From contig NZ_CP077369.1 in NCBI RefSeq assembly GCF_019048525.1, positions 1,178,001 through 1,242,000 of the forward strand: a DNA stretch of 64,000 nt, written 5' to 3'. Every line of letters starts with the position of its first letter. Position 1 is the stretch's first letter. Shown here piece by piece: positions 40,429 to 54,493 of this stretch. The stretch comes from Acinetobacter lwoffii (GTDB lineage: Bacteria > Pseudomonadota > Gammaproteobacteria > Pseudomonadales > Moraxellaceae). A model generated the notes under the pieces. It searched no databases. It had not been told where the DNA came from and saw only the letters and a program-made list of their open reading frames with translations. Both the position numbers and the translations under genes were made by a program.

Positions 40429-40884
40429 ATGCCTAGAATTGTTTCTGTACCACTTAGTTTAGAACAGCGAGAACGACTCATTTTTCTGGTCAAGCATGCA
40501 AAACATTGGCGTGAAAGGCAACGTGCCCAAACTATTCTCTGGCTTTCCGAAGGTAAAAGTGTTGCGGAAGTTGCCACTCTACAAGAACGTATCCCAGAAA
40601 CCATAAGGCTACAACGCCGACGTTGGGAATTGTATGAGTTTGAATCGATTAAAGAAGGTCATCGCTCAGGTCGACCCAATACATTGATCTCAGACTATCA
40701 GGCGAAAATCCTAGATTGGGTCAATACAAGTCCACTCAATGCAGAACAAATCCGAGTCAAACTACATGAAGAATACGAAGTGTCCGTGTCTGTTGAAACC
40801 ATTCGTAAGTTTTTACGTGATTCAGGTATGGTCTTCAAGCGTACCCGTCATAGCTTGAAAAAAAAGAGATCCGATTGCATTTGA
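40429..40884 (+). CDS. IS630 transposase, upstream frame (orfA)
   Basis: 151 residues. HTH region (LIFLVKHAKHWRERQRAQTILWLSEGKSVAEVA) and a second winged-helix part up to KRTRHSLKKKR. The frame stops at 40884, just after an A8 tract (40858-40865), after which the rest of the transposase is in the +1 frame. The start ATG may be at 40429. Confidence 0.85.
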   Translation: MPRIVSVPLSLEQRERLIFLVKHAKHWRERQRAQTILWLSEGKSVAEVATLQERIPETIRLQRRRWELYEFESIKEGHRSGRPNTLISDYQAKILDWVNTSPLNAEQIRVKLHEEYEVSVSVETIRKFLRDSGMVFKRTRHSLKKKRSDCI

Positions 40885-41440
40885 ACAAGCAACACAGCAG
40901 ATTGAAGAATTACGAGAGCAAGCGGCACGTGGTGAAATTATATTAGGTTATGTTGATGAAACAGGATTTTCATCTACACCTGATAACCGCTATGCGTGGA
41001 CAAAGATAGGTGATGTTCATGCGGTTGATGCAATAAGATTAAAACGAGTTAATGTCATGGGGTGTTTGCTTTCAACGGGGAAACTGGTGACAAGCTGTTT
41101 ACAAGAGTCAGTGAAAAGCACTTGGTTTTATGCCTATTTAACTGGAATAGCTCAACAAGTAAAACAGATGTATAACCTTCCATTGGTTCTTATTGTTGAT
41201 AATGCCTCGATTCATAGAAGTAAAAAGATGGCTGATTACAGAGAGCTACTTAAAACTAACTTTTCGACGAATCTGTATTTTATTCCAGCTTATAGCCCTG
41301 AGTTAAATCGAATCGAGATGGTATGGAAGCAGATGAAATATTATTGGCGAGATTTTCAAGTCATGACAGCTGACAAAATAGAGCAATGGGTGGAGAAAGT
41401 ATCAAACCAATTCGGAAAAGAATACATGTTTACTTTTTAA
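40868..41440 (+). CDS. IS630 transposase, downstream frame (orfB)
   Basis: The +1 frame from the A8 tract encodes DPIAFEQATQQIEELREQ and then the catalytic part: ILGYVDETGFS (Asp), LIVDNASIHRS (Asp) and SPELNRIEMVWKQMKYY (Glu). It has no suitable start; the first ATG (41057) falls after the first catalytic Asp. Production probably needs a +1 shift from orfA at the A8 run, as in other two-frame IS630 elements, or the element is defective. Confidence 0.8.
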   Translation, partial: DPIAFEQATQQIEELREQAARGEIILGYVDETGFSSTPDNRYAWTKIGDVHAVDAIRLKRVNVMGCLLSTGKLVTSCLQESVKSTWFYAYLTGIAQQVKQMYNLPLVLIVDNASIHRSKKMADYRELLKTNFSTNLYFIPAYSPELNRIEMVWKQMKYYWRDFQVMTADKIEQWVEKVSNQFGKEYMFTF

Positions 41441-41448
41441 TGACAACT

Positions 41449-41754
41449 TATCTAAGTCGATAATATGTTTTTATCAAAGGATAAAAATAATAAGTGAATA
41501 GTATTGTTTAAAATAAATTTTATAACTGATTTATTTTAAACGTTTTTTTAATCGAGTTTTGTTGGGCTGAAGAAACCCATAAAAATAATGAATGAAATAA
41601 GGGTGTTTCCTGGCTATAACTCCCATTTTTGCATATAGAAAATCCTGGCTAAATGGGCTTTATTTTTGAAAAAGCATTGGCAAATATGCTTGAAAATTAG
41701 TCAGTCGGCCCTATAATTATCTCACTCCTTCCTCCAAATTATATAGAGAGCAAG
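41449..41754. other. Intergenic region between IS630 and the small ORF
   Basis: 306 bases, AT-rich, no ORF. Contains the promoter of the small ORF at 41690-41717. Nothing else recognised. Confidence 0.4.
41690..41717 (+). promoter_or_regulatory. Sigma-70 promoter of the small non-stop ORF
   Basis: TTGAAA (41690-41695), 16-base spacer, TATAAT (41712-41717); predicted start about 30 bases before the ATG at 41755. Confidence 0.8.
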
Positions 41755-41934
41755 ATGGCCAAGAAAAAAACAGCCGAGCAGGTAGTGATCCACAATTTTG
41801 TGGCAAAACACATGCATGAAGTCAACAAAAGCCAGGTTTTTGTAGATCGAAAGAAAAATTCAAAACGTGGCTACAACAAGCACAGACAAGGGCGATATTC
41901 CATGGAAGATCGCCCTTTTTTAATGGCCGCTTAA
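41755..41934 (+). CDS. Small basic protein; stop codon lies beyond its own terminator (ArfA-like arrangement)
   Basis: A 59-codon ORF. Start MAKKKTAEQVV, then VAKHMHEVNKSQVF, VDRKKNSKRGYNKHRQ, and C-terminal EDRPFLMAA. Strongly basic in the middle. A complete rho-independent terminator (41890-41921) falls inside the ORF and ends before the TAA (41932-41934), so most transcripts would lack the stop codon. Non-stop mRNAs made this way are the established hallmark of arfA (ribosome rescue factor A), whose truncated product is destroyed by tmRNA tagging and rescues stalled ribosomes when tmRNA is short. The protein does not show the KGKGSY block of E. coli ArfA, so homology is not proven; it may be another small conserved family. 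GAGAG precedes the ATG. Confidence 0.7.
   Translation: MAKKKTAEQVVIHNFVAKHMHEVNKSQVFVDRKKNSKRGYNKHRQGRYSMEDRPFLMAA
41890..41921 (+). terminator. Intrinsic terminator inside the small ORF
   Basis: GGGCGAT pairs with ATCGCCC around a 12-base loop that itself contains TTCC/GGAA, followed by T6. The T-run ends 11 bases before the stop codon of the ORF containing it. Confidence 0.88.
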
Positions 41935-42431
41935 GGTCTGTAAGGTGGCTGGGGACGACGTGGGGGCTGCTTAGGATTAGTTTTAACTGGAGAGAGCGGG
42001 GCGACAGGCCGGTTGTTACGAGTTTGCGAATATTGATTTGGATACCGGGATGATGTTGTCGATTCATCCGCGATTAAGTCATTAAAGAATTTATTGAGTT
42101 TGCTTTGCACTGGTGCTTTGTGGTGAGGGGAATGAGGCTGTGGTCTGGCCTGCTGAAAACTGGAAAATTGATCTTTTTGTTGGTGATAGAGTCTGGCAGC
42201 AATGACGGAGGGGTCATCTCTGCCTAAACGCCGCCGTTGCGATGCCGAAATTTCAATGCCCAATAATGGAATCATTTTAGGCCGATCGGCATAGCTCATT
42301 GCTCGATTGCTGGCGGGGCGTATATAAGATGAACCGGAATTATGAGCTTCTTTGCGGGCAGCCAAGGCCGGTGCAAGAATGACCACATAGAACACCGCAA
42401 CAATCATGAACAGGATGACCAGAAATTCCAT
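41931..42431 (-). CDS. Hypothetical protein with one N-terminal transmembrane segment
   Basis: 166 residues from the ATG at 42431, which follows AGAGGTGG; an upstream GTG/ATG extension lacks a ribosome binding site. One N-terminal hydrophobic helix (FLVILFMIVAVFYVVILAPALAA), then a basic, Ser/Gln/Pro-rich, probably disordered region. A bitopic inner-membrane protein; no domain recognised. It is read toward the small ORF and overlaps its last few bases. Confidence 0.75.
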   Translation of the reverse strand: MEFLVILFMIVAVFYVVILAPALAARKEAHNSGSSYIRPASNRAMSYADRPKMIPLLGIEISASQRRRLGRDDPSVIAARLYHQQKDQFSSFQQARPQPHSPHHKAPVQSKLNKFFNDLIADESTTSSRYPNQYSQTRNNRPVAPLSPVKTNPKQPPRRPQPPYRP

Positions 42432-42473
42432 AACCACCTCTACCACTGTCGAGGGACTGGAAAAAGTCCCGTA

Positions 42474-44771
42474 TTAGGCACTCACCATACGTGATGCAGA
42501 TTTCACCATATCCCCTAAACCATGGGTTCTGAAATAATATTCTAACCAGCTTTTTACCATGAGCGGATTGTCCATTTTTAACACATGTTGCAGCAATTCT
42601 TGTGCATCACTCATCGGAACATGACAAATGGTTTTACGTACCCGCAAAATATTACTGGAACTCATCGACAGGGTATTAAAGCCCATGGCCATGAGCAAAA
42701 CTGCAGACAGCGGATCGCCCGCCATTTCACCGCAGATACTGACCGGTTTTTCATTACGATGACAGTCCTGCACCAGACGGGTCAGGGCACGCAGTACTGC
42801 AGGGTGTAAATGTGAATAGACATTGGCTACCCGTGGATTATTGCGATCCACAGCCAACAGATATTGGGTCAGATCGTTGGAGCCGACCGAGAAGAAATCC
42901 ACCAGTTCGGAAAATTCATCAATCTGATGAAGCACACTCGGCACTTCCACCATGATGCCGAGTTTTGGTTTATTTACCTTGACCTGTTCTTCTTCTTGAA
43001 TCGCCGCATGGTCACGTTCCAGCAGATAGAGCGCTTCCTCGACCTCGCTGACACTGGTCACCATCGGCAGCAGAATATGCAGGTTATTCAGTCCGATACT
43101 GGCTTTGAGCATGGCGCGAATCTGTGAAGAAAAAATTTCCGGATGATCCAGGGTAAAACGAATGCCACGCCAGCCGAGTGCCGAGTTTTCTTCTTCAATC
43201 GAGAAATACGGCAGGTCTTTGTCTGCACCAATGTCCAACGTTCGCATCACCACCGGTTTATTGGCAAAGTGACTGAGCTGCTGACGATAAATCGCACGTT
43301 GTTCTTCCTCGCCCGGGAAGCGGTCACGCAACATAAACGGAATTTCAGAACGGTATAAACCGACACCTTTGGCACCACGCTGCACGCCACGCACCACATC
43401 AATCATCAGGCCGGTGTTGACGTAGAGTTTGACCGCCACGCCATCCGGGGTAATCGCATCTTTGGTTTCGTACTGGCGCAGATCTTTAGCAAGCTGTTCT
43501 TCTTCTTTTTGAATTTCTTTATAGCGACTGCGCAGGCGACGTGGGGGATTAATAAAGACCCGGCCCTGATGTGCATCGACAATCATCTCTACATCATCGA
43601 GGGTGTTGATCGGCAGTTCGGTCACGCCGACCACGGTCGGAATACCAAGAGCACGCGCCACAATCACCATATGTGAGTTCATGGCGCCTTCGGTAGTGAC
43701 AATCGCGGCAATTTTATCTACAGGTAGTTCAACCAGTGCAGCCGTCGAAATTTCCTCACCAATCAGAATACTTTCATCGGTCAATTCACGGTGACTGGCA
43801 TCGGCTTCCTGTAAGCGCGCCAGAATACGGCGGCCCAGATCTTTTAAGTCCGCTACCCGCTCACGTAAATAATCATCTTCCATTTGGGAAAATTGTGCCA
43901 CATGATTGTCAATAACAATTCGCACGGCGCCTTGTGCCCAGTGACCTTCACGAATAAAAGCCTTGATTTCTGCAGGCAGGGCATTTTCATCCAGCATACG
44001 CAAGAACACGCTAAACAGTGCGCGTTCCTCGGCCATTAACGCATCCTGCATTTTGTCATCCAGTGACTGGATTTCTTCACGGACTGAATTTAGCGCGTTA
44101 TCTAAGAGCTGCAGTTCTTCGCTGATGTCATCTGCTTCACGGTCAGGGACTGCGGCAAGATCTGCTGGCGGATAGAGAATCACTGCACGACCTAAGGCAA
44201 TGCCACCGGAGCCAGAAACTCCCTGAAAGGTTTTATAGGCGGGCAGGTTGCTCGGCTTACGGAATACATCGATATTGCCAACGGCATGGGCATGGGCGAT
44301 GACGCCAGAAAGCTGCGCGCAGAGTGTGACCAGAAAGGATTCAGCAGCTTCAGAAAAGTCCTGTGATTCTTTATTCTGAACCACCAGTACACCCATGACC
44401 TTACGGCGGTACATCACCGGCACACCGAGGAAGGAGTTATAAATTTCCTCACCGGTTTCAGGTAAAAACAGGAAGCGCTCATGTTTAGGGGCATTGTCCA
44501 GATTGACAATTTCTTCACGTTGTCCAACCAGGCCCACCAGACCCTCACCGGTCTGCAAAGACACATGGCCGACAGATTCTGCATTCAGGCCTTTAGACGC
44601 CATGAGCAGATAACGCTGATTGCGTTCATCGAGGAGATAGATCGAGCAGACATCAACCTGCATGGCCTCGGCCACATGCTTGACCATAATGTCGAGTGAT
44701 TCATGCAAACTGGTGGACGCATTGATCTCCTGAACAATACGTCTCAAGGTGTCCAGTTGCATATTCGACAT
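42474..44771 (-). CDS. ptsP: PtsP: nitrogen-PTS phosphoenolpyruvate-protein phosphotransferase
   Basis: 765 residues. An N-terminal GAF domain (about 5-150, SICY-like DVCSIYLLDERNQ) then the EI-type PEP-utilising region with the phospho-His in GAMNSHMVIVARALGIP, the PEP-binding RSEIPFMLRDRFP and C-terminal GSNDLTQYLLAVDRNNP and CGEMAGDP. First phosphoryl donor of the nitrogen PTS (EINtr) that feeds HPr-like NPr and EIIANtr; those are not in this window. Downstream of rppH with an 89-base gap, the order also found in E. coli. Confidence 0.96.
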   Translation of the reverse strand: MSNMQLDTLRRIVQEINASTSLHESLDIMVKHVAEAMQVDVCSIYLLDERNQRYLLMASKGLNAESVGHVSLQTGEGLVGLVGQREEIVNLDNAPKHERFLFLPETGEEIYNSFLGVPVMYRRKVMGVLVVQNKESQDFSEAAESFLVTLCAQLSGVIAHAHAVGNIDVFRKPSNLPAYKTFQGVSGSGGIALGRAVILYPPADLAAVPDREADDISEELQLLDNALNSVREEIQSLDDKMQDALMAEERALFSVFLRMLDENALPAEIKAFIREGHWAQGAVRIVIDNHVAQFSQMEDDYLRERVADLKDLGRRILARLQEADASHRELTDESILIGEEISTAALVELPVDKIAAIVTTEGAMNSHMVIVARALGIPTVVGVTELPINTLDDVEMIVDAHQGRVFINPPRRLRSRYKEIQKEEEQLAKDLRQYETKDAITPDGVAVKLYVNTGLMIDVVRGVQRGAKGVGLYRSEIPFMLRDRFPGEEEQRAIYRQQLSHFANKPVVMRTLDIGADKDLPYFSIEEENSALGWRGIRFTLDHPEIFSSQIRAMLKASIGLNNLHILLPMVTSVSEVEEALYLLERDHAAIQEEEQVKVNKPKLGIMVEVPSVLHQIDEFSELVDFFSVGSNDLTQYLLAVDRNNPRVANVYSHLHPAVLRALTRLVQDCHRNEKPVSICGEMAGDPLSAVLLMAMGFNTLSMSSSNILRVRKTICHVPMSDAQELLQHVLKMDNPLMVKSWLEYYFRTHGLGDMVKSASRMVSA

Positions 44772-53399: not shown

Positions 53400-54479
53400 A
53401 TGTCTAAACAAATTTTGATTTTAGCTGGTGACGGCATCGGCCCTGAAATTGTAAAAGCCGCAGAGCAAGTACTCACACGCGTAAATGAAAAATTTAATCT
53501 CGATTTGACATGGGAACAGGGCTTACTCGGTGGTGCAGCCATTGATGCACATGGTTCACCGTATCCTGAAGTGACCTCTGAACAGGCTAAAAAAGCTGAT
53601 GCGATTTTACTCGGTGCCGTGGGCGGTCCAAAATGGGATACGATTGAGCGCTCAATTCGTCCGGAACGTGGTTTATTGAAATTGCGTAGTGAACTGAACC
53701 TGTTTGCTAACTTGCGTCCAGCCATTCTTTATCCGCAATTGGCTGATGCTTCAAGTTTAAAGCCTGAAATCGTAGCAGGTCTGGATATTCTGATTGTGCG
53801 TGAATTGACCGGTGGTATTTACTTCGGTCAGCCACGCGGTATCCGTGAACTGGAAAATGGCGAGAAACAAGGCTATAACACTGACGTTTATTCAGAATCT
53901 GAAATCAAGCGTATCGCCAAAGTCGCTTTTGAAATGGCCAACTTGCGCGGTGGTAAAGTATGTTCAGTGGATAAAGCCAACGTGCTTGAAGTAACTGAAC
54001 TGTGGAAACAGACAGTGACTGCGCTGAAAGATGCCGAATACCCTGAAATTAATTTATCGCATATGTATGTCGACAATGCCGCAATGCAACTGGTGCGTGC
54101 GCCAAAGCAGTTTGACGTGATTGTCACCTCGAATCTGTTCGGTGATATCCTGTCTGATGAAGCTGCGATGTTGACCGGTTCAATCGGCATGTTGCCATCG
54201 GCATCTCTGGATGAAAATGGCAAGGGCATGTATGAGCCTTGTCATGGTTCTGCACCAGATATCGCCGGTCAAAACCTGGCAAATCCATTAGCGACGATTC
54301 TTTCGGTGGCGATGATGTTGCGTTATACCTTCCGTGAAGAAGCGGCTGCTAAAGCGATTGAAGATGCAGTAGGTCAGGTCTTGGATCAAGGCTTGCGTAC
54401 GGCAGATATCATGTCTGAAGGCATGCAAAAAGTCGGTACGGTTGAAATGGGTCAAGCAGTCGTTGCTGCATTGAACTAA
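53400..54479 (+). CDS. leuB: 3-isopropylmalate dehydrogenase
   Basis: 359 residues. Typical start [14 protein letters not shown], substrate-binding [21 protein letters not shown], the metal-binding [18 protein letters not shown] and the [19 protein letters not shown] [15 protein letters not shown] segment. Oxidatively decarboxylates 3-isopropylmalate to 2-oxoisocaproate. Last of the leu genes; strong terminator follows. Confidence 0.97.
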
Positions 54480-54493
54480 GCCTGTTTTGATTC

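Follow-up and report, generated by a model that had tools for sequence, protein, structure and literature searches.

A DUF7230 gene of Acinetobacter lwoffii with a terminator ahead of its stop codon: a probable ArfA-like backup ribosome-rescue gene outside the ArfA family

The described systems that come closest to the gene reported here are arfA of Escherichia coli and brfA of Bacillus subtilis, which share the same nonstop layout (PMC3989581, PMC6881298). ArfA (YhdL, PF03889), known from E. coli and other proteobacteria, is a short, basic protein with a KH within its basic C-terminal part, active at a length of 52-55 amino acids (PMC6299226). A hairpin inside its frame, or over the end of it, leads to nonstop mRNA, and the full-length product bears a hydrophobic C-terminal tail; in E. 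coli this hydrophobic end destabilises full-length ArfA, while two aspartates stabilise it (PMC3989581). In the case of BrfA (YqkK), a KH-containing product of about 62 residues repressed by trans-translation, a rho-independent terminator lies ahead of the stop codon, and the Lys-His motif common to ArfA and BrfA contacts 16S rRNA (PMC6881298). ArfT of Francisella tularensis, in turn, is a small release-factor (RF)-dependent rescue factor from a gammaproteobacterium devoid of ArfA and ArfB; its gene reportedly carries neither a terminator nor an RNase III site ahead of the stop codon, and the protein has a KKGGSTNKK stretch (PMC6299226). According to one review, more rescue factors are to be expected beyond the reach of sequence similarity (PMC8012679). 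Since trans-translation has been proposed as an antibiotic target (PMC7979765), backup factors would decide whether its inhibitors kill.

Here we describe a gene of A. lwoffii that quite probably encodes a tmRNA-repressed backup ribosome-rescue factor, similar to ArfA and BrfA in its way of working and placed outside PF03889. Like ArfA, its product is short and basic, has a KH within the basic C-terminal part and a hydrophobic tail on the full-length form, and would be about 54 residues long when made from a nonstop mRNA, which is here predicted from the layout of the sequence. Unlike ArfA, it has neither a PF03889 match nor the KGKGSY block; conserved NxVAK and F.D(R/K) motifs are found instead. 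The terminator ahead of the stop codon, the size of the product and the KH motif are shared with BrfA, a likeness that we draw from the published description, the host of BrfA being Gram-positive. ArfT, also compared by description, differs in its gene layout, and a KKGGS-type motif is absent from the A. lwoffii protein.

The DUF7230 gene and its internal terminator

We analysed a stretch of 64,000 nucleotides of A. lwoffii DNA (contig NZ_CP077369.1), hereafter the window, in which the following features matter.

41690..41717, + strand: promoter-like TTGAAA-16-TATAAT, 11/12 consensus positions
41745..41750, + strand: putative Shine-Dalgarno-like AGAGAG, 4 nt 5' of the ATG, from reading of the sequence
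41755..41934, + strand: DUF7230 (PF23876) gene, 59 codons and TAA, from the list of open reading frames (ORFs) and the Pfam match
41794..41883, + strand: conserved core N14 to H43, NFVAKHMHEVNKSQVFVDRKKNSKRGYNKH, from invariant columns in alignments
41888..41917, + strand: terminator hairpin within the coding frame, from folding and orthologue conservation
41916..41921, + strand: T6 run, from the sequence; predicted 3' end of most transcripts, 5' of the stop codon
41920..41931, + strand: read-through tail LMAA, predicted to be made only on failed termination; assessed by the composition of 67 distinct orthologous tails
41932..41934, + strand: stop codon TAA, 10 nt past the T-run
41931..42446, - strand: convergent 171-aa ORF from the ORF list, its stop overlapping that of the DUF7230 gene
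42474..44771, - strand: convergent neighbour, ptsP-like

A previous reading of the window, made from the letters without database searches (the sequence-only reading), had proposed a 59-codon ORF at 41755-41934, and it is present as stated, encoding MAKKKTAEQVVIHNFVAKHMHEVNKSQVFVDRKKNSKRGYNKHRQGRYSMEDRPFLMAA (59 aa). The sole Pfam match of this protein is DUF7230 (PF23876; score 58.8 bits, cut-off 27, E 5.7e-16), and an NCBIfam search with it gave no match. A protein search with the single sequence found 196 relatives, and one with a 15-sequence profile found 725. The core from N14 to H43 contains many columns that are invariant among 14 Acinetobacter proteins, the KH motif being invariant in all of them, and N14 and A17 are invariant across 20 diverse members of the family. 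It might be argued that so short an ORF, lacking an NCBIfam match, is spurious and non-coding, but a PF23876 match of this strength, together with conservation of the protein in 87/149 Acinetobacter genomes and beyond the genus, leaves this idea with a negligible chance of being right. The Pfam entry for PF23876 reads only 'family of unknown function', with the layout and role undescribed there, and we found no open-licence paper on DUF7230 or PF23876. Open-licence papers on Acinetobacter ribosome rescue or ArfA, judged by title and the start of the abstract, likewise contained nothing on this gene.

Upstream of the gene, the promoter-like site at 41690-41717 ranks first among the 7 sites found within 3 kb; shuffled sequences average 5.6 sites. 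Among the 110-nt upstream regions of the orthologues (n=87, the window included), a site with at least 9/12 consensus positions occurs in 33 vs 15 after shuffling, and one with at least 10/12 in 16 vs 2. The promoter, which the sequence-only reading had called a good sigma-70 promoter, is thus plausible and, as far as this crude consensus test shows, conserved only in part.

The hairpin at 41888-41917 has a predicted free energy of -15.8 kcal/mol in a 42-nt stretch (z -4.0), which none of 200 shuffles equalled, and a 206-nt fold contains it again, in the minimum-energy structure as well as in the centroid. The claim that its T6 ends before the stop codon of the ORF proved correct, the hairpin and T6 spanning 41888-41921 and the stop codon following 10 nt later. 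A stock terminator scan missed this hairpin and gave two others, while dedicated folding and our own scan detected it. The latter, run over the window (T4 or longer, dG -11 or lower, 54 ORFs of 100 aa or more kept, each on the same strand as the site), returned 7 other hairpin-plus-T sites within such ORFs, all with imperfect stems and with T-runs that end at least 220 nt before the stop codon, and one further imperfect site that overlaps a stop codon (54445-54488). When the gene was recoded synonymously with the codon usage of the window's long frames, 4/5000 recodings were as stable as the window stem.

Conservation of the layout in Acinetobacter

The DUF7230 gene was found in 87 of 149 Acinetobacter genomes, with a single match in each, and in 85 of the 144 more complete and clean ones. 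In all 87 orthologues the frame is open through a hairpin of dG -9 or lower, and none has a stop codon ahead of it. A T-run of at least four ends ahead of the stop codon in 85/87, at a distance of 7 to 147 nt, and abuts the stem in 80/87; the two exceptions (L064, L079) keep the hairpin and have a broken T-run. These 87 rows, which correspond to 56 distinct 39-mers, are not independent, because several belong to strains that are almost identical or to sister species. Taken with the rare recodings of equal stability, the hairpin in 87/87 and the T-run in 85/87 argue that this layout is more than chance.

Selection at the RNA level was assessed on the 56 distinct 39-mers and 12 pairs of the stem. 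Across the orthologues, 96.1% of stem cells pair, compared with 39-66% in slid-partner controls. Double-sided changes occur in 4/12 stem pairs, a count that alone says little because slid structures give 1 to 3. One of these pairs is C-G in 32 rows, A-T in 18 and G-T in 6; its 5' arm mostly exchanges CGA for AGA, both of them Arg codons (or Gly GGA), and in its 3' arm CGC (Arg) becomes CTC (Leu). In a second pair, which lies at synonymous Gly and Arg codons, 48 rows have G-C, 5 T-A, 2 T-G and 1 G-T. Synonymous recodings over the 56 distinct rows were equally stable in 45/16800 cases. As recoded stems are rarely as stable and the arms covary, the RNA partly dictates the amino acids GRYSxxYxPF.

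The codons behind the terminator show no sequence conservation (67 distinct tails), and their composition is unusual. Charged residues make up 2.8% of the tails (75 distinct tail DNAs). The two alternative frames reach 5.4 and 6.9%, the DNA further downstream, when translated, 18%, and the C-terminal eight residues of 229 long ORFs 23%. Because the other frames are low in charge as well, the hydrophobicity of the tails is partly due to T-rich DNA. The last tail residue is Ala in 23/67 and Cys in 14/67. A Cys end is thus found in 14/67 tails vs 1/229 long ORFs (p 4e-9) and an AA end in 9/67 vs 5/229 (p 0.0007), both p values being optimistic for related sequences. The tmRNA tag encoded in the genome is ANDESYALAA, and the gene's own read-through end is LMAA.

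Taken together, the conservation in Acinetobacter, the covariation and the tail composition support the ArfA-like nonstop control logic put forward in the sequence-only reading; on comparative evidence, such control is well founded. A simpler account has nonetheless to be weighed, in which convergent genes merely share the hairpin as a bidirectional terminator and the stop codon lies behind it by accident. The gene is indeed convergent with a neighbour in 82/86 orthologues, beside which lies either a ptsP-like gene (70) or the 171-aa ORF (12 more), and many of the hairpins have 5' A-runs, so that they could terminate both strands. On the other hand, 87/87 frames cross the hairpin and 0 stop ahead of it, the tails keep their unusual composition, and in 20 distant DUF7230 loci, covered with flanks of up to 1.5 kb, ptsP had no match. 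Of these loci, 8 retain a hairpin before or across the stop codon, some without a T-run. We therefore regard a mere shared terminator as very improbable.

With respect to this neighbourhood, ORFs similar to the 171-aa ORF (31-99% identity) adjoin 20/86 orthologues. In 30 of the 62 DUF7230-negative genomes the ptsP slot was searched; a ptsP match of 81-88% identity was present in 29, and no DUF7230-like frame was found among the ORFs listed there. Just 5' of the DUF7230 gene of the window lie two frames, 40429-40884 and 41057-41440, which to us look like a split IS630-type transposase.

DUF7230 outside the genus and its relation to ArfA

Beyond Acinetobacter, a sample of 370 genomes of the class yielded 12 loci (10 over the cut-off, with L099 and L100 below it), and one of 195 genomes of the order yielded 8 further DUF7230 loci. 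Over both samples, DUF7230 occurs in 15 gammaproteobacterial families. In 10/20 of these distant loci the 50-nt fold beats all 100 shuffles: the significant hairpin lies wholly before the stop codon in L088, L089 and L096, across it in L091, L092, L108, L113 and L114, and mainly after it in L093 and L098. The other 10/20 have no significant hairpin by this 100-shuffle test. Since 10/20 are without a hairpin and 2/20 have it mainly after the stop codon, nonstop control is not universal in DUF7230, and it needs to be mentioned that the 20-locus counts are not independent, as some pairs share one genus. Frames ending before the hairpin, which would speak against the proposed control, are thus absent from Acinetobacter (0/87), and the picture is mixed among the distant loci.

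The form of the hairpin also varies. RNase III cleavage is one of the two known routes for arfA, and the long stems of L088, L091, L092 and L108 (-31 to -38 kcal/mol, no T-run) resemble RNase III sites. In L089 a hairpin of -38.5 is followed by TTTTATTTTA. L111 fails the shuffle test and has a perfect 12-bp hairpin of -21.3 kcal/mol; its DUF7230 gene has no stop codon of its own, and the frame runs past the hairpin into the next gene, a coding region that resembles one for a signal peptide and a dehydrogenase.

The sequence-only reading offered two possibilities, a diverged ArfA and a protein without kinship to it that senses tmRNA in the same way. The control logic common to both has strong support from conservation; as to the family, the HMM search against ArfA (PF03889) that it had named as a check gave no match to the 59-aa protein up to E 10, and DUF7230 was matched instead. 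As the PF03889 profile fails to match, the protein is not a member of the ArfA family, and PF03889 was found in 0 of the 149 Acinetobacter genomes at E 0.01. It had also been right that the KGKGSY block is missing, with KKNSKRGYNKH in its place; in 14 ArfA sequences, G, K, S and Y of this block are invariant and the first K and second G nearly so.

Could the two families still be remote homologues, DUF7230 being a diverged ArfA that has lost KGKGSY? Such descent would be compatible with the role that we propose. We compared an alignment of 20 DUF7230 proteins (the window, 2 other Acinetobacter and 17/20 distant loci, L092, L095 and L099 being left out) with one of 14/19 ArfA loci over the cut-off. 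The best pairwise score (20 DUF7230 x 14 ArfA), 60, was reached by 2/300 regional shuffles, and the mean pairwise score was 26.8 vs 24.3 (sd 0.28) after shuffling (0/300) and 22.8 for reversed sequences, although these means are overstated because independent shuffling ignores relatedness within each set. Besides, N14, H21, Q27, K33 and K34 stand at the same residue numbers in E. coli ArfA, KH is at 42-43 in the window protein and at 44-45 in E. coli ArfA, and two DUF7230 loci (L113, L115) and one ArfA locus (L116) all end in YRQAA with near-identical codons. Against this, hhalign gave DUF7230 vs ArfA a probability of 1.3%, and both families are short and lysine-rich. Without realignment, the hhalign score was 10.8, reached by 1/100 column shuffles and thus near the threshold; this result and the pairwise scores, which are weaker tests, lean towards kinship. 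Ungapped identity of the window protein to residues 8-54 of E. coli ArfA is low overall, and a solved-structure search with the DUF7230 profile returned no ArfA and only two unrelated hits (E 1.6). Kinship with ArfA is therefore, at the level of sequence, possible, and we hold descent from a common ancestor to be somewhat less probable than its absence.

Two short genes at the edge of the DUF7230 score, L098 and L100, have an RTPRF stretch like that of the order's ArfA. Both carry NPxAKxVRTPRF, similar to NALKAQLRTPRF of ArfA L103 (shuffle p 0.003 and 0.016; other pairs gave p 0.002 to 0.09 in the same test), and may possibly be DUF7230/ArfA intermediates. A protein search with the intermediate-looking L100 found nothing. 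An apparent mutual exclusion of the two families was also considered: DUF7230 occurs in 13 and ArfA in 7 genomes of the class sample (370), and in 9 and 15, respectively, of the order sample (195), with both in 0 of either; as less than one co-occurrence is expected by chance over both samples, this proves nothing.

Rescue setting and proposed role

The A. lwoffii genome has tmRNA. A search for ArfA in it gave nothing over the cut-off and one chance-level hit (E 0.91). Two of its genes have an RF-1 domain, and from the size of their frames, 363 and 351 codons, we take them for RF1 and RF2; ArfB, looked for as a stand-alone PF00472 protein, was not found, and the DUF7230 protein itself is without an RF-1 domain. 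KGG, presumably the family that Burroughs and Aravind treat as a broad ArfT family (PMC6514570), had no match in the genome and is not among the Pfam hits of the 59-aa protein.

Across the genus, 62/149 genomes are without DUF7230 (a few of them incomplete). Because no ArfA and no third RF-1-domain gene was found in these 62 either, a backup of one of these known types is not obligatory in the genus, and many Acinetobacter seem to be without ArfA, ArfB and DUF7230 alike. A third RF-1-domain gene, ArfB and PrfH not being distinguished here, is present in 15 genomes (G005, G034, G043, G047, G050, G062, G063, G072, G078, G086, G092, G093, G122, G126, G140), all DUF7230-positive. KGG proteins occur in 23/149 genomes, and KGG as a replacement for DUF7230 was rejected, as 15 DUF7230-negative vs 8 positive genomes form no clear pattern. 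In A. baumannii AB5075, smpB is reported to be dispensable in vitro (not essential in the input pool) and essential in spleen, liver and kidney (PMC12604733). A. baumannii is probably without the DUF7230 gene, and one record with this label (ACIN00150) carries it. If AB5075 lacks the gene, then either rescue is dispensable there or another factor exists, which would argue against any simple either-or rule for Acinetobacter as a whole.

We propose the following course of events. The mRNA would usually end at the internal terminator, so that ribosomes reach its 3' end without a stop codon. With trans-translation working, tmRNA-SmpB would free the ribosome, and the product of about 54 residues would be tagged and destroyed. 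With trans-translation overloaded or absent, the untagged product would accumulate and serve as a backup rescue factor. Its C-terminal part, basic and with the KH motif, would then occupy the vacant mRNA channel, and its N-terminal part would assist a release factor in freeing the peptide. Read-through of the terminator would yield a product whose tail bears hardly any charge and frequently ends in Ala or Cys, and which would probably be degraded. The actual 3' ends, the tagging, the dependence on a release factor and the action of the tail as a degron are what we infer from the layout and from the systems described above.

The rescue activity itself would follow by analogy, and we consider it the best inference because the characterised genes of the same layout considered here, arfA and brfA, encode rescue factors, the size, charge and KH motif fit, and the known backups are missing. 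One objection is that the gene is regulated by tmRNA through its nonstop mRNA and has some other task, for example a ribosome- or RNA-binding stress role that reports trans-translation capacity. The lack of a significant profile match to ArfA and the absence of the gene from 62/149 genomes would suit such a role, but arfA and brfA, with the same layout, encode rescue factors (PMC3989581, PMC6881298), and the size of the protein, its basic C-terminus, its KH motif and the absent known backups fit rescue. We find another role unlikely, and the backup rescue factor remains the reading that we favour. On this reading the family is probably a new spare of the stopless kind, and DUF7230, a Pfam family of unknown function, gains a testable role. 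A terminator maintained in evolution before the stop codon could then serve as a way to find rescue factors that are missed by sequence similarity.

A wider and more tentative scheme can also be drawn, to which we would give rather less than an even chance. In it, DUF7230 would be a further family of nonstop-encoded, RF-dependent rescue factors, remotely akin to ArfA and spread over many gammaproteobacterial families, whose genes change with ease among layouts with an intrinsic terminator, with an RNase III-type site and with no stop codon. The rare read-through product would have a C-terminus mimicking SsrA (-AA in the group of A. lwoffii), and the protein would meet the same proteolysis whichever way it is completed.

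Ends in -AA were also seen elsewhere in the order of the window. Full-length ArfA frames end in this way in 11/14 loci over the cut-off (L103, L104, L116-L127), and DUF7230 frames outside Acinetobacter (L108-L115) in 5/8. Constraints of the hairpin could be an alternative cause of these ends; it is also possible that they form an SsrA-like degron on read-through products.
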